A stretch of 64,000 bases of DNA from Arenimonas sp. (GTDB lineage Bacteria; Pseudomonadota; Alphaproteobacteria; Rhizobiales; Rhizobiaceae). Under the pieces are notes generated by a model. It had not been told where the DNA came from. It saw nothing but the letters and a program-made list of their open reading frames with translations, and did not search any database. The translations under genes were made by a program, and so were the position numbers. Shown here piece after piece: positions 16,846 through 63,052 of the stretch (its first letter is position 1; each line of letters starts with the position of its first letter). The stretch spans positions 1 through 64,000 of the forward strand of contig JAIBEK010000042.1 of NCBI GenBank assembly GCA_019459145.1. Reading direction: 5' to 3'.

Positions 16846-17162
16846 GAGCGCGCATCCTTTATAATAGCAAAGTGACGTTGAATTTCCGGGAACCTAGTGT
16901 TCGAGTTTTCAAAACGCAATATGCAAGCTGGAAAACAATCAATAATTTCAAATATTTAATCGATTTAAATGGAAATATGCATTTTTAAATCGGTTTGCAC
17001 GGGATGCTTTCGGTTGTCATCGAGGGCGTTATGCACCTCATTTCACTGCTAGCTGCGGAGCGCCCCTTTATCTTTGCCACAATTTGTTCCACCTTTATCC
17101 TCAATAAGCGCATCCTAACGTCGCCAAACCCTGGGCTGGGACATTACCAGGAGCCGCGCTTC

Positions 17163-30861: not shown

Positions 30862-33800
30862 CGAGGCAACCCTGCCATCCAGGGATGATCCGGCAGCCTC
30901 GCTCGACTGGACCAGCCTGCAGCAGGCGGTGGCCTCCGACCCGGCGAGATCGGCCTGGGTTTCCGCCAATGCCGGATCGGGAAAAACCCATGTACTCACC
31001 CAGCGGGTCATCCGCCTGCTGCTTGCCGGCGCAAGGCCGTCCTCGATCCTGTGCCTCACCTATACCAAGGCCGCCGCTTCGGAAATGTCGAACCGCGTCT
31101 TCTCGCGGCTGGCGGAATGGGCAACGCTGTCGGACGAGGAACTGGGCAAGCGGCTTTGCGCAATCGAGCAGCGGCAACCGGATCGCCTCAAGCTGGCGGA
31201 GGCTCGGCGACTGTTTGCCCGCGCGCTGGAAACCCCCGGCGGCTTGAAAATCCAGACCATCCACGCCTTTTGCGAGGCGCTGCTGCACCAGTTTCCGCTG
31301 GAGGCCAATGTTGCCGGCCATTTCACCGTTCTCGACGACCGGGCCGCGCATGCGGTTCTGGCGGAAGCCCGCCGCTCGCTTCTGACCGCCACCTCGTCAG
31401 AGGATGATGCGGAGCTGGCAGAGGCCTTTTCCCAGGTTCTGAGCATCGCCGACGAGAGCGGGCTTGAAACGCTGCTGGGCGATCTCGTCGCCAACCGCCA
31501 TGCGGTGCGCGCCTTCGTCAAGGCAGCGGAGCCGTCCGGCGGCGTGGATGTCCTGCTGCGCCGGGGACTGGATATTGCCGAAGGCACCACGGAGGACGGT
31601 CTGCTTGCCCAGGTCTGGCCCCTGCCCTCGCTCAGTGGACCGGTGCTGACCGCCTTTATCCTGCTCGCGCGGGAAAAGGGGAATCCTACGGTTCATGAGG
31701 TTGCCGATCTCCTGGAGAGCGCCGCGCACGAGCCCGACGCCCGCAAGCGGCTCGGCATCGTCGAGGCCGCGTTCTTCACCAAGGGGGGCAAGCCGAAGGC
31801 GGACAGGTCGCTGATCGCGGCGGCCATGACGAAGGCGGACCCGCAGCTTCACGAGGCGATCGTCGCAGCGCGCGCGCATGTCGCCGCCTTTCAGGATCGC
31901 CTGCGCATATTCCGCATGTACCAGGCGACCATGGCGGCGCTGACCCTGGCCGGACGGCTCGACGAGGACTATGAGGAGCTCAAGAAGAAGCGCAGCCAGC
32001 TCGACTTCGAGGACCTGATCGTCCGCACGGCGGAGCTTCTGCTGCGCAGCGATGTCGGTCCCTGGGTCCACTACAAGCTGGACCAGGGCATTGATCATAT
32101 CCTCGTCGACGAAGCCCAGGATACCAGCCCCGTTCAATGGTCGGTGATCCGCTCGCTGCGCGAGGACTTCTTCTCCGGCGAAAGCGCCCGCAGCCTGTCA
32201 CGCACCTTCTTTGCCGTCGGCGACGAGAAGCAGTCGATCTACTCCTTCCAGGGCGCCCGGCCCGAACGGTTTTCCGAAGAGGCAAAAGCAACGGCACGGG
32301 CTGTCGCCGCCGGCAAGCAATTGTTCACGCCCGTCCGCCTGCCGCTCTCCTTCCGCTCGACCTTGACCGTGCTGTCGGCCGTCGACCAGGTCTTTTCCGT
32401 TGCCGGCAACGCCCGAGGACTTAGCGCCGGTGGCGAAGAAGTAGTTCATCTTTCGAGCCGGATCGGCCATCCCGGTGCGGTCGATCTGTGGAGCATGATC
32501 GCGGCGGAGAAGCCCGACACGTCCGAGGATTGGACGGCACCCTTCGACGCGACACCGGAAAGCGCGCCATCGGCGATCCTGGCGCGGCGCATCGCCTTCA
32601 CGATCGAGCAATTGCTCGGCAAGGAAACCATCATCGAGAAGGGCAAGCGACGGCTGATCCGCGCCGGCGACATCCTCGTTCTGGTTCGCAAGCGTGACAA
32701 TTTCGTCAATGCCCTCACCCGCGCGCTGAAGCGGCGCGACAATATCCCCGTGGCCGGTGCCGACCGGCTGAAGCTGACCTCGCATATCGCCGTGCAGGAT
32801 CTTTTGGCGCTCGGCCGTTTCGTTCTCCTGCCGGCTGACGATCTTTCGCTTGCGGCCCTGCTGAAGAGCCCGCTGTTCAATCATGGCGAGGCGGATCTGT
32901 TCGACCTGTCCGCCTATCGGCCGGCGGATCGTGGTCTCTGGGCGCATATGCGCATCGCAGCCGAAACAGATGGCCGCTGGGACGAGACGGTCAGGCGCCT
33001 TGAAGCCTTCCTGACCCTGTCGCAATCCCTGCCCGTCCATGACTTCTATGCGCGCGTGCTGGGTGTCCATGGTGGAAGACGGGACTATCTCGCGCGCCTG
33101 GGCTCGGAAGTAAGCGACATCCTCGACGAATTCCTGAGCTTTGCCCTGGCTTTCGAGACCGCCGGCCTGCCCGGCTTGCAGGCCTTTGTCTCGACGCTGG
33201 AGACGGAAGCACCCGAGGTCAAGCGCGAGCAAGACAAGGACCGCAACGAGGTCCGGATCATGACCGTCCACGCCTCGAAGGGGCTCGAGGCGCCGGTCGT
33301 CTTTCTCGTCGATGGCGGCGGCAAGCCGTTCAATCAAAACCATCTCGCCAAGTTCCGCCTGATCGAGGGCGGGCAAGATCATGCACCGTTTCCCGTATGG
33401 GTGCCGAACAAGACGCTCTCCAATAGCCTGGTCGAGGCCGATGTGGAGCGGCGCCGGCAGATGGCGGAAGAGGAATATCGCCGCCTGCTCTACGTCGCCA
33501 TGACGCGGGCGGCGGACCGTCTGATCGTCTGCGGCTATCGCGGCGTGAACGATCCCGGCGAGGTCTGGCACCAGATGATTGCCGATGCTCTGCGCGACAA
33601 GACGGAACTCTGTCAGCCGGTTGAATATTCGAGTCCGGACGGCGCCTGGGAAGGATTGGCCTGGCGGCAACCCGAGCCAGAACGGGAATTCGAGAGCGAA
33701 ACGGGGGCGCTTGCCGATGCGCAGGAGGAGAACTTGCCGGAAGGGCTGCTCCGCCCTCTTGCCGCCAGCCCTGGTCTGCCACGCCCGCTCAGTCCTTCCG

Positions 33801-41401: not shown

Positions 41402-42682
41402 TCAGGCGGACTTGCCGCCCTTGATGACGCGTCGTACCGGGCTCTGCTTTGCGCCCCGCGACTGCTGGGTCGCAAAGGCGAGGATTCGCGGAGCGATTTC
41501 CTTGCGGAAACGCGAACCGTTGAACACACCGTAATGTCCGACATCGGGCTGCAGATAATGCATGCGCTTGTCGTCGGGAATGTTCGGGCAGATGGTCTGG
41601 GCAGCGCGGGTCTGGCCGACGCCGGAAATGTCGTCGTTCTCACCCTCCACCGTCAGCAGCGCGACATTGCGGATCGCCTTTGTGTCGACCAGCTTTCCAC
41701 GATGCAGCATCTCGCCTTTCGGCAGCGCGTGCTTGATGAAGACGGTATCGACCGTCTGCAGATAGAATTCCGCGGTCAGGTCCATGACGGCCAGGTACTC
41801 GTCATAGAAGTCACGGTGCTTCTCGGCCGAATCCCCGTCATTCTTGACGAGGTGCATGTAGAAGTCCTTGTGGGCGATCATGTGCCGGTCGAGGTTCATC
41901 GACATGAAGCCGGACAATTGCAGGAAACCGGGATAGACCGCCCGCATGAAACCCGGCTGCGGCCAGGGTACGTTCATGATGACGTTGTCCTTGAACCAAT
42001 CGAGCGGCTTGTTCTGGGCCAGTTCGTTGACCGCAGTCGGATTGCTGCGGGTGTCGATCGGGCCGCCCATCAGCGTCATCGACGACGGGTAGAGCGGGTC
42101 GTCATTGGCTTCCATCACCGCCACTGCGGCCAGAACCGGGACGGAAGGCTGGCAGACCGCCACGAGATGCGTATCTGCGCCAAGATGGTGGACCATCTCG
42201 ATCACGTAGTCGATATAGTCGTCGAGATCGAAGCCGCCGTCGGTGACAGGCACCATGCGCGCATCGATCCAGTCGGTGATGTAGACGTCGGCGCCCTGCA
42301 TCAGCGCTTCGACGGTGCCGCGCAGCAGCGTTGCATAATGACCGGACATCGGCGCGACGATCAGGATGCGGGGACCGGGTTCGGCGCCGGCCGGCAGGTC
42401 CCGGCGGAAATGGATCAGGTTGCAGAACGGTTTCTGCCAGACGATCTCCTCGCTCACGGTCACTGTCTGGCCGTTCACCGTGGTCGTGGGCAGGCCGAAT
42501 TCCGGTTTGCCATAGCGACGCGTGACGCGCTCGAAGACTTCCAAGCCTGCGGCAAGGGTCCGCCCGACCACGGTGTGAGACAGCGGATTGAACGGATGAC
42601 GATAGGCGAGCCGCATGGCGTCGGCCGTGGCCCGGAACGGAGCCATTGCCGCATGGTTCATTTCATAGAGCTGGTAGAACAT
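41402..42682 (-). CDS. phaZ: intracellular polyhydroxyalkanoate depolymerase
   Basis: MFYQLYEMNHAAMAPFRA; LVAVCQPSVPVLAAVAVM lipase-like box; YLQPDVGHYGVFNG. Confidence 0.92.
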   Translation of the reverse strand: MFYQLYEMNHAAMAPFRATADAMRLAYRHPFNPLSHTVVGRTLAAGLEVFERVTRRYGKPEFGLPTTTVNGQTVTVSEEIVWQKPFCNLIHFRRDLPAGAEPGPRILIVAPMSGHYATLLRGTVEALMQGADVYITDWIDARMVPVTDGGFDLDDYIDYVIEMVHHLGADTHLVAVCQPSVPVLAAVAVMEANDDPLYPSSMTLMGGPIDTRSNPTAVNELAQNKPLDWFKDNVIMNVPWPQPGFMRAVYPGFLQLSGFMSMNLDRHMIAHKDFYMHLVKNDGDSAEKHRDFYDEYLAVMDLTAEFYLQTVDTVFIKHALPKGEMLHRGKLVDTKAIRNVALLTVEGENDDISGVGQTRAAQTICPNIPDDKRMHYLQPDVGHYGVFNGSRFRKEIAPRILAFATQQSRGAKQSPVRRVIKGGKSA

Positions 42683-52419: not shown

Positions 52420-53011
52420 CGATTTCTCCCAGGGTGCGCAACTGACCCAGCAACGGCAGCAGCGGCAAGCCGAGAATGGTGAAGTAATCGCCGGTAATCG
52501 AATTGAATAGCTGGATTCCGATCCCCTCCAGCTGGTAGCAGCCGACGCTTTCCATCACCTTCTCTCCACAGCAATCCAGATAGCTTTCGAGAAATGCGTC
52601 GGAGAAATCGCGCATGGCGAGATCCGCCGTCGACAGATGGCGCCACAGTTCCCTGCCCCCGCGCACCAGAACGATACTGCTGTTCAGGCGGTGCGTCTCG
52701 CCGCGCAGGGCAGAGAGGGTTGACCTCGCCTCGGTGCGGTCCGCAGGCTTGTGGAAGACCCGCTGTCCAAGCGACATGGTCTGGTCACAACCGATGACCA
52801 ACGCTGTCGGGAAGCGTTGGCTGACCTCCAGTGCCTTTGCCGCCGCAAGTTCGACGGCCAGGTCACCCGGTCCAAGGTCCCGCGGGAGTAGATCCCGCTC
52901 GACCGCACGTTCGTCGATGTTCGCCGCAACCGCCTGAAATGCCAGTCCGGCATTTTCCATCAGCTTGCGGCGAGACGGACTCGCGGAGGCGAGAACCAGT
53001 GTTTCGGCCAT
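52412..53011 (-). CDS. maf: Maf family nucleotide pyrophosphatase
   Basis: [32 protein letters not shown]. Confidence 0.94.
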
Positions 53012-53049: not shown

Positions 53050-53886
53050 TTAACGCAGCTTCATTCGAAGGGCAACGATAGCAACGGCCGTTTCCTCGAT
53101 CGAGCGCCGCGTCACGTCGATGATCGGCCAATTGTTGCGGGCGCAGAGCATGCGGGCGTATTTCAGTTCCTCGGCGATGGTCGCACGATCGATGTATTCG
53201 CTGCGGTCATAGCCCGGCGTCGCCCCAAGCTCACGGTTCTCGCGCACCTGGGAAATCCGATCGGAGGTGGCGATCAGACCGACGATCAGCGGTCTCGTGG
53301 CGCGCATCAGACTATCCGGCAGCGGCACACCGACGACGATCGGGATATTCGCCGTCTTGATGCCGCGGTTCGCCAGATAGATGCTGGTCGGCGTTTTCGA
53401 TGTCCGGCTGATGCCGATGATGACGACATCGGCCGCATCATAATCGCCTGCCGACTGTCCGTCATCGTGATCCATGGTAAAATTGAGCGCTTCGATCCGG
53501 GCAAAATATTCGGCATTCAGCACATGTTGCGCGCCCACCCGTCCACGTGACGGCGCGCCGAGATAGGACTGGAACTTCTCAATGACGGGCGCGAGCACGT
53601 TGACGCTCGGCACGCCCATCTCCCGGCAGGTGGTTTCCAGCAGATTGCCGAGATCGGGATCGACGATCGTATAGAGAACGATCCCCGGTTCATCGTCGAT
53701 CGCCTGAAGAACCGGCAGAAGCTGCCGCTTGGAGCGGATCAGGGGATAGACGTGCTCGATGGCGTTGGACGCCTTGAATTGCGCTGCCGCGGCACGGCCC
53801 GCCGAGATGAGAGTCTCACCCGTGGAGTCAGAAATCAGGTGGAGATGAAAGAAATTTTTCCGGTTCTCCACGTTCTTCTCGATCAC
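53050..53886 (-). CDS. pyruvate,water/phosphate dikinase regulatory protein (DUF299 kinase/pyrophosphorylase)
   Basis: [57 protein letters not shown]. Confidence 0.94.
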
Positions 53887-54272
53887 CTGTTGATAAGTCG
53901 GGAGAAACAGACCTAGCGGCGCGGGGCATGACCGGGCAAGGGGAAAAGTGCCGATTTATCCACACCCCTGCCTGACCGGGGTGATTTTCAAGGCACCTGT
54001 GGATTGTGGTAAGACGTCGCATCCATCCCGTCTTGTTCTGTGGTTATCCACAGGGTGAGCGGCTTTTGGCTTCAGACAAACCATTGTATTTTATCAATTT
54101 TATAAGGTTGTCCCGGTTATCCCAAGGCAAGTACCTCAAAATCATTCTCGTCATGTGAGACCTGGGGACGACTGGGGTTTGTCTGTGGAACAGCTTTAAT
54201 CCTTGATAGCCACAGACTCTTAGAAATAGAAGAAGATTCAATTATCTTTTCTTTTTTAAGAGGGCAGGCGCC
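53887..54272. other. probable chromosomal replication origin (oriC)
   Basis: Intergenic between DUF299 gene (-) and hemE (+); perfect DnaA boxes TTATCCACA at 53956 and 54044, near-box TGTTGATAA at 53888, weaker boxes, AT-rich patch 54081-54107, GANTC at 54215 and 54235; hemE-rho-mnmEG-rsmG-parAB neighbourhood. Confidence 0.85.
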
Positions 54273-55307
54273 TTGAGCGGTAGCGAACGGAAGATTCTCG
54301 AAGTTCTGAATGGCAGGACAGTGACCCCACCGCCGATCTGGTTGATGCGGCAGGCGGGGCGCTACCTTCCCGAATATCGCAAAACCCGGGCCGAGGCCGG
54401 GAGCTTTCTCGATCTCTGTTACACGCCCGACTTCGCCGTCGAGGTGACGCTCCAGCCGATCCGTCGCTATGGCTTCGATGCGGCGATCCTGTTCTCCGAT
54501 ATTCTGGTCATTCCCGATGCCCTGAAGCGAAATGTGCGCTTCACCGAAGGGCATGGACCGCAAATGGATCCGATCGATGCCGACGGCATACGGGCGCTTC
54601 AGCCGGACGCCTTCATGGAGCACCTGGCGCCCGTCATCGAGACCGTGCGGCGTCTGCGTCTGGACCTGCCGGTCGAGACCACCCTGCTCGGCTTCTGCGG
54701 GGCACCGTGGACGGTGGCCACATACATGATCGCCGGTCACGGAACGCCGGACCAGGCGCCTGCCCGGCTTTTTGCCTATCGCTATCCGGAAGCCTTTGCT
54801 CAGCTGCTCGATCTGCTGGCCGACATGTCCGCGACCTATCTGGTTGCCCAGATCGATGCCGGCGCGGATGCGGTGCAAATCTTCGATTCCTGGGCAGGGG
54901 TGCTGGGCGAGGAAGAGTTCGACAAATACTGCACCAGGCCGATGGCCCGGATTATTGCCTCGGTCAGGGCGCAGCGGCCCGGCGCGCGCGTCATCGCCTT
55001 TGCCAAGGGCGCCGGCCTGCTGTTGAAGGATTATCGGCAGAAGACCGGTGCCGATGCCATCGGGCTCGACTGGACGGTGCCGTTGAGCTTTGCCGCGGAG
55101 TTGCAGAAGGACGGGCCGGTGCAGGGCAATCTCGATCCGATGCGGGTTGTGGCGGGCGGTCTGGCGCTCGAGGAAGGGATTGATCGAATCCTGGACAAAC
55201 TCGGGCATGGTCCGCTGATCTTCAATCTCGGCCACGGCATTACGCCCCAGGCGGATCCGGAAAACGTGACGGCCCTTGTCAGGCGCGTGCGCGGCATGAA
55301 GGACTAG
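54273..55307 (+). CDS. hemE: uroporphyrinogen decarboxylase
   Basis: [66 protein letters not shown]. Confidence 0.98.
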
Positions 55308-60691: not shown

Positions 60692-61347
60692 CAATGAAGA
60701 GCCGTTCTATGGAAAGCCTGGGGATGAACGTTTCACGTGAAACGTTCGAACGCTTCGATCGTTTTACGAGTCTCTTCCACAAATGGGCGCGAAGTATAAA
60801 TCTCGTGGCACCGTCCACCAGGGAAAATCTCTGGGAGCGCCATATCGCCGACAGCGCCCAGATTTTCAAGATTGCTCCGGGTCCGAAACATTGGATCGAC
60901 CTGGGAAGCGGCGGGGGTTTCCCCGGGGTTATCACGGCAATCTTGCTGACGGAACAGGGCGCTGGTTGGGTCGATATGGTGGAAAGCAACCATAAGAAGG
61001 CCAGTTTCCTCCGAACGGCCATTACCGAGACCGGTGCGCGTGGTGCCGTTCACGCGATCCGGATCGAAGATGCGCAGGACAAGTTGCCAAACTGCGATGC
61101 CATTTCCGCCCGAGCGCTGGCCGAGCTCGACAATTTGCTCGATTTAGTGGAACCCTGGGCGCTACGAAATCCGCAACTCCGCTGTTACTTCCACAAAGGT
61201 CGGGATTACCGGCTGGAAATCGAGAAAGCCCGTGGTCGGTGGGGCTTCGATCTGATAGTACACCAGAGTGCCATCGAGCCTGACTCCGTCATTCTGGAGC
61301 TGGCGGAAATCCGGCGCCTTAGTCAACCAGCGGCAGGTGCGGAATGA
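60688..61347 (+). CDS. rsmG: 16S rRNA (guanine(527)-N7)-methyltransferase RsmG
   Basis: [49 protein letters not shown]; exact start uncertain (60688, 60694, 60709 or 60724). Confidence 0.95.
60726..60747. promoter_or_regulatory. parS site candidate, 22-bp perfect palindrome inside rsmG
   Basis: GAACGTTTCACGTGAAACGTTC, core GTTTCACGTGAAAC. Confidence 0.9.
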
Positions 61348-62138
61348 CTCTCGAGAAAAATCGGATCATCACCATTGCGAACCAGAAGGGCGGCGTCGGC
61401 AAGACGACGACCGCGATCAATCTCGCCACGGCGCTTGCGGCGATCGGTGAGCGCGTTCTGATCGTCGACCTCGATCCGCAGGGCAATGCCAGCACGGGTC
61501 TCGGCATTGATCGCCGGGATCGCAAGCTGTCGTCCTATGATGTCCTGGTGGGAAGCCATTCGGTCAGCGAAGCGGCGCTGGATACGGCCGTGCCCAACCT
61601 GGCAATCGTCCCTTCCACGCTCGATCTGCTCGGTTTCGAAATGGAGATCGCGCAACAGCCGGATCGTGTTTTCCGGCTCAAGAAGGCACTCAATACCGAC
61701 GAGGCACGCCGTTACAGCTATGTGCTGGTCGATTGCCCGCCCTCCTTCAATCTCCTGACGATGAATGCCATGGCTGCGGCCCATTCGGTTCTGGTGCCGC
61801 TGCAATGCGAGTTCTTTGCCCTGGAGGGGCTCAGCCAGTTGCTCGAAACCATCAATCAGGTGCGCCAGACGGTCAATCCGTCGATCGATATTCAGGGCAT
61901 CGTGTTGACCATGTTCGATGCGCGCAACAATCTGGCCCAGCAGGTCGTCAGCGACGTGCGGATGCATCTGGGGGAAAAGGTCTATACGACGCTGATCCCC
62001 CGCAATGTTCGTGTGTCCGAGGCGCCGTCCTATGGCAAGCCGGCCATCCTCTACGATCTGAAATGTGCCGGGAGCCAGGCCTATCTGCAGCTGGCCTCGG
62101 AGGTTATTCAGCGCGAAAGACAGCGCAAGGCAGCGTAG
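61344..62138 (+). CDS. parA: chromosome partitioning ATPase ParA
   Basis: [49 protein letters not shown]. Confidence 0.97.
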
Positions 62139-62170: not shown

Positions 62171-63052
62171 ATGAGTGACGATCTTTCCAAGCGGCGCCTC
62201 GGCCGGGGGCTGGCCGCCCTGATCGGCGAGATGGATCAACCGCTTCCGGTCGGCGACAGCCGACCAAGCGTCAATCCTGATCGTTCGGTTCCGATCGAAT
62301 TCGTCGCTCGCAACCCGAAGAACCCCCGTCGCTATTTCGATGAGGCTGAGTTGCAGGATCTTGCCGGATCGATTCGCCAGCACGGCATCGTCCAGCCAGT
62401 CGTGGTCAGGACGCGCGACAAGGATCGGTTTGAAATCATAGCCGGCGAACGACGCTGGCGCGCGGCGCAACTTGCGGGTCTGGTGGAGATCCCGGTGATC
62501 GTTCGCGATGTGGACGATCGCACGGCGCTCGAACTGGCGATCGTCGAGAATGTCCAGCGCGCCGACCTTAACCCGCTCGAGGAGGCGCTCGGCTATGAGC
62601 AGTTGATCGCCGAGCATGGCTACACCCAGAACGATCTCGGAGAGATCATCGGCAAGAGCCGCAGCCACGTCGCCAATAGCCTGCGCCTGCTGAAGCTGCC
62701 CGAGCCGGTGCGCGACATGCTGGCGGAGGGCAGCCTGTCCGCGGGTCATGCCCGTGCGCTTGTTTCGACGCCGGATCCCGTGACGCTGGCCAAGACCATT
62801 GCCGCGAAGGGCCTTTCGGTGCGGGATGCGGAAAAGCTCGCCCAGACCCATATCAAGGCGCAGAATGCTCCTCCGGCGGAGCCCCGCGAGCCGAAGGATT
62901 CGGATACAGTGGCGCTCGAGCGCAGCCTGACCGACCGGTTGGGGCTGGCGGTCGCGATCAATCACAAGGGCAGCGGCGGTCAGATCAAGATCACCTACCA
63001 GAGCCTCGAGCAGTTGGAAGAGATCTGCCGCCTTCTCGAAGGCCGAGGCTGA
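62171..63052 (+). CDS. parB: chromosome partitioning protein ParB
   Basis: RRLGRGLAALIGE; IRQHGIVQPVVVR; IIAGERRWRAAQLAGL; IIGKSRSHVANSLRLLKLP. Confidence 0.97.
   Translation: MSDDLSKRRLGRGLAALIGEMDQPLPVGDSRPSVNPDRSVPIEFVARNPKNPRRYFDEAELQDLAGSIRQHGIVQPVVVRTRDKDRFEIIAGERRWRAAQLAGLVEIPVIVRDVDDRTALELAIVENVQRADLNPLEEALGYEQLIAEHGYTQNDLGEIIGKSRSHVANSLRLLKLPEPVRDMLAEGSLSAGHARALVSTPDPVTLAKTIAAKGLSVRDAEKLAQTHIKAQNAPPAEPREPKDSDTVALERSLTDRLGLAVAINHKGSGGQIKITYQSLEQLEEICRLLEGRG

Follow-up and report, generated by a model that had tools for sequence, protein, structure and literature searches.

The window analyzed here, a stretch of 64,000 nucleotides, opens a 120,382-bp contig in a draft genome of 4,547,671 bp and 70 contigs. 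The host is a Ciceribacter-like, rhizobium-like member of the Rhizobiaceae; its hemE matches that of Ciceribacter sp. T2.26MG-112 at 95%. A 386-bp intergenic gap (53887–54272) lies between the minus-strand COG1806/DUF299 gene and the divergently oriented hemE on the plus strand (Table 1), and a preliminary description had proposed that this gap is probably the chromosomal oriC. Profile searches confirmed the gene names and directions it had assigned on both sides, namely the minus-strand dnaQ-like exonuclease gene, coaE, aroE, maf, and COG1806/DUF299, and the plus-strand hemE, hemJ, rho, mnmE, mnmG, rsmG, parA, and parB. An Rfam scan of 53–55 kb at a permissive threshold returned zero matches, indicating that the origin bears no RNA known to Rfam.

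Table 1. Features of the COG1806–hemE gap and its surroundings, in window coordinates
Feature	Position	Strand	Remarks
COG1806/DUF299 gene (PpsR-like regulatory kinase/pyrophosphorylase), left border	53050..53886	-	profile search, NF003742, 332.8 bits
Putative oriC region (chromosomal origin)	53887..54272		divergent gap COG1806/DUF299–hemE
DnaA box, one mismatch (TTATCAACA)	53888..53896	-	in 20/58 close relatives
DnaA box, exact	53956..53964	+	offset kept in 57/58 close relatives
Weak DnaA box, two mismatches	53998..54006	-	better box at same offset in 19/58 relatives
Weak DnaA box, two mismatches	54039..54047	-	overlaps exact box at 54044; overlooked in the preliminary description
DnaA box, exact	54044..54052	+	box at same offset in 35/58 close relatives
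Secondary AT-rich zone, unwinding candidate of the preliminary description	54081..54107		includes one-mismatch IHF-like match at 54092
Weak DnaA box, two mismatches	54117..54125	+	motif match
Weak DnaA box, two mismatches	54184..54192	-	motif match
Best-conserved origin block (TTTAATCCTTGATAGCCACAGACTCTTAGAAATAGAA)	54195..54231	+	ATAGCCACA (54206–54214) at position of ATCCAC in other orders
GACTC, CcrM (GANTC) site in block	54215..54219		in 79/82 relatives with hemE at least 65% identical
Predicted DNA unwinding element	54219..54259		least stable 40-bp step window of 50–58 kb
GATTC, second GANTC site, AT-rich zone	54235..54239		motif match
hemE, right border, TTG start	54273..55307	+	profile search, TIGR01464, 408.4 bits
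parS, GTTTCACGTGAAAC	60730..60743		sole exact match in genome; 6.5 kb from gap, beside parAB
parA	61344..62138	+	profile search
parB	62171..63052	+	profile search

The exact DnaA box is rare in this genome, where four copies occur, two of them inside the gap; the reversed word has 23 copies. Both exact boxes (TTATCCACA) and the one-mismatch box TGTTGATAA lie where the preliminary description had put them, as do its weaker candidates TTATCCCAA (54117), TGTGGAACA (54184), and ATAGCCACA (54206), while TGTGGATTG begins at 53998 and not at 53999. Compared with local shuffles of the gap, the cluster exceeds chance at every level of stringency: two exact boxes were observed against 0.002 expected, three with up to one mismatch against 0.07, and five with two mismatches against 0.9. 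We dropped the reading of ATAGCCACA (54206–54214) as an ordinary DnaA box because the word is not retained as such in relatives, which carry ATAGTCACC, ATAGACACC, or CTACTCACC at this position. The two exact boxes elsewhere in the genome (genes named by eye from ORF translations) fall between a YbjN-like/proC pair and lgt (G000:C29:100445-100453) and close to genes for haem transport and a PhzF-like protein (G000:C48:3735-3743); these are possible DnaA-regulated or titration sites. Neither the full-length dnaA candidate nor the best gcrA match is adjacent to the origin; both are on another contig (G000:C35:163907-164113 and 41605-42120).

We compared the gap with 80 loci holding the best hemE matches, taking gap statistics from those with COG1806 upstream, and defined a close set of 58 Rhizobiaceae loci whose hemE is at least 75% identical. 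Across this close set the COG1806–hemE gap has a median length of 388 bp and a coefficient of variation of 0.008, in contrast to 0.51 for the hemJ–rho gap of the same loci. DnaA boxes with up to one mismatch recur at fixed offsets, chiefly 66–72 (57/58 loci; 0.00 in shuffled sequence) and 156–163 (35/58), with minor groups at 2, 111–115, 121–124, 145–150, and 222–228. Farther afield, 47 of 58 loci drawn from the order and class have COG1806 and hemE in divergent orientation, with gaps of 292–864 bp. One record titled Bacillus subtilis SK6B4 (JAHREI010000001.1, L078) contains an alphaproteobacterial hemE/COG1806 origin locus, its hemE 68% identical, and is therefore mislabelled or contaminated.

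The gap coincides with a switch in strand bias, both on its own contig and at the orthologous locus of two closed relatives. Cumulative GC skew, suggested as a check in the preliminary description and computed for the 120,382-bp contig of this draft genome only, reaches its minimum at 52,961, approximately 1 kb away from the gap; keto skew on this contig is noisier and is lowest at 32,749. KOPS motifs on this contig are unevenly oriented only on the left side of the gap (1 plus, 10 minus); on the right side the orientations are mixed (6 plus, 10 minus), and the counts were therefore left out of the argument. For the closed chromosomes of Shinella sp. H4-D48 and Rhizobium leguminosarum Norway, we sampled twenty 20-kb stretches each. 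In Shinella, which has the locus at approximately 32 kb, both keto skew and KOPS (GGGNAGGG) fall on the plus side between 0.18 and 1.85 Mb; between 2.0 and 3.47 Mb they are mostly minus-sided, some samples being mixed, so that the sign changes near the record start and near 1.85–2.0 Mb. The R. leguminosarum locus, at 4.509 Mb, is therefore not at the record start; here the keto skew is −586 at 4.42 Mb and has switched to +202 by 4.60 Mb, with the reverse change near 1.84–2.08 Mb. Each of these two chromosomes has only two parS matches, all within approximately 7 kb of the orthologous locus.

Toward hemE, the conserved block 54195–54231, independently recovered as a shared piece by a family-wide DNA search, directly precedes the thermodynamically weak stretch 54219–54259 and overlaps its start. 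Besides the IHF-like match listed in Table 1, there is a second one-mismatch match at 54196; it is present in 41/60 relatives, within a block that is conserved anyway. The gap contains just two GANTC sites, one of them the near-invariant GACTC of the block. In the final 100 bp before hemE, GANTC is enriched 6.1-fold over shuffled sequence in close relatives and 3.4-fold in a set of approximately one genome per family; the seven other palindromes built on this pattern show no enrichment in the latter set. CTNAG (3.5) and AGNCT (1.9) also exceed expectation in the close set, as expected of words that sit in a conserved block shared by descent. Elsewhere, in the hemJ–rho gap and in crude intergenic samples, GANTC ratios are approximately 0.4–1.5. 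A more than 1.5-fold excess of GANTC in intergenic DNA has been published, as has the presence of such motifs in the origin of Caulobacter (PMC3973325); the present comparison refines this by placing the concentration of GANTC at the presumed opening site. In Brucellaceae and Aurantimonadaceae (L061, L063, L064, L074, and L077) the block holds several GANTC sites approximately 6–10 bp apart (GACTCTAAGAATC...), a series resembling a small array of repeats within the AT-rich zone.

DnaA also has a known role in transcriptional regulation, and the gap could conceivably be nothing but a divergent promoter at which it controls hemE and COG1806 as a transcription factor, with the real origin elsewhere. 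The divergent genes that flank the gap and a −35-like CTTGAT inside the conserved block fit such a reading; it is nonetheless very improbable given that the skew minimum and parS are found here, that two closed chromosomes switch replichores at the orthologous locus, and that the gap length is constant to approximately 1%, which would be unexpected for a promoter region. These same observations, with the flanking genes shared with the Caulobacter origin Cori (PMC1914354) and the box offsets held across approximately 58 Rhizobiaceae, bear out the identification of the gap as an origin, and judged from its sequence features it is almost certainly the place where replication of the main chromosome starts.

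Within the origin, nearest-neighbor calculations of DNA stability over 40-bp step windows point to 54219–54259, beside hemE, as the probable unwinding site, and not to the AT stretch 54081–54107 favored in the preliminary description. That stretch does exist and is the second least stable zone of the gap; its sequence is unconserved, though AT content climbs there in relatives too. The weakest window lies 6–26 bp from hemE in 60/71 relatives, as in this genome, and 126–196 bp from hemE in the other 11, which makes it improbable that unwinding begins at 54081–54107. The lowest stability of the entire 64 kb was calculated for the step window 16938–16978, away from the origin. An alternative of more weight, though still the less likely one, accepts the gap as the origin and takes the block 54195–54231 to be chiefly the hemE promoter, perhaps of a GcrA type with a methylated GANTC, lying outside the unwinding element. 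TTGATA (54203–54208) and ATAGAA (54226–54231) are separated by 17 bp that include GACTC, the genome codes for a GcrA-family protein, and transcription of hemE from the Caulobacter origin plays an important part in replication (PMC8959179). Against a mainly promoter role, GACTC is kept in Brucellaceae and Aurantimonadaceae and the −35-like part is not, the block aligns with a box-plus-tract module shared across orders and abuts the least stable DNA, and the oriC gap of Sinorhizobium meliloti has been reported to be without transcription (PMC2245857).

We therefore favor, with high confidence, the reading that the 386-bp gap is the oriC of the main chromosome of this Ciceribacter-like Rhizobiaceae member and would operate from the strong boxes toward hemE. 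DnaA would bind first at 53956 and 54044 and then extend across the weak boxes; at the hemE end it would engage the conserved block and melt the AT-rich 54219–54259, where the helicase would be loaded and from which forks would depart both ways. Methylation of GACTC by CcrM may, if it acts here at all, affect opening or hemE transcription. The unwinding repeats of E. coli contain GATC sites. By analogy, Rhizobiaceae and related families may have a rewired unwinding module, in which the conserved block with its near-invariant GACTC replaces the DnaA-trio and the methylation state (full before firing, half after) modulates melting or re-firing; we regard this as rather unlikely. Depletion or excess of CcrM in A. 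tumefaciens brought no measurable change in ori1 firing (PMC11514494), and a strong methylation switch is therefore unlikely under the conditions used there.

This analysis locates a replication start in an unfinished genome. The origin is an ordinary member of the known hemE-linked alphaproteobacterial class, and its near-invariant CcrM site is a testable feature. Comparison across the family yields a base map open to experiment, with near-rigid 388-bp spacing, a DnaA box in 57/58 loci, and an opening site predicted beside hemE. The methylation site at that presumed opening point merits testing, and the strong, specific positioning of CcrM sites there throughout the class allows a direct test of whether methylation acts on DnaA-dependent origins outside Dam/SeqA bacteria.

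In an anchored comparison, other orders show at the position of the block AATCC..(T/A)ATCCAC followed by a triplet-like tract poor in G, which reads CTACTACTA in distant orders and is CAACAA-like in nearer ones; AT-rich DNA comes next. The distant alphaproteobacterial loci, with their ATCCAC box, CTACTACTA-like triplets, and AT-rich DNA by hemE, thus resemble the basal unwinding system of the Bacillus subtilis type, which uses DnaA-trios (PMC8287927), and the Rhizobiaceae block occupies the equivalent place in that layout. Searches of the gap and its relatives for standard DnaA-trio modules (a box, a spacer of up to 16 bp, and at least three trios of standard polarity) gave none that was convincing, with no run of four or more repeats in any group, and the A-centered triplets of the window (TAG AAA TAG AAG) are carried by the strand opposite the expected one. 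Because standard trios were not found in Rhizobiaceae, we treat the likeness as a lead and not as membership; the block is possibly a deviant form of the trio system.

A close, experimentally studied counterpart is the 404-bp Cori of Caulobacter crescentus, which, like the Rickettsia origin, is flanked by hemE and COG1806 (PMC1914354), in agreement with the placement beside hemE cited in the preliminary description. The two origins share these genes, a similar length, strong and weak DnaA boxes, and GANTC sites, and parS lies approximately 8 kb from the origin in C. crescentus (PMC6399470) versus 6.5 kb here. They differ in CtrA control: Cori has five CtrA sites (PMC8959179, PMC6399470), whereas our origin holds no TTAA-N7-TTAA box with up to one mismatch, and such boxes occur in 16/60 relatives against 16.7 in shuffled sequence, with no excess in Rhizobiaceae. 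In this respect the gap is like the oriC of S. meliloti, a member of the same family (SMc04880, annotated at 477 bp; PMC11476347), which is without CtrA motifs and without CtrA binding (PMC4433202). The S. medicae locus (L018) differs from ours in that the first offset lacks a DnaA box within one mismatch of the consensus word; its gap measures 391 bp, and it matches 36 of the 37 bases of the conserved-block consensus.
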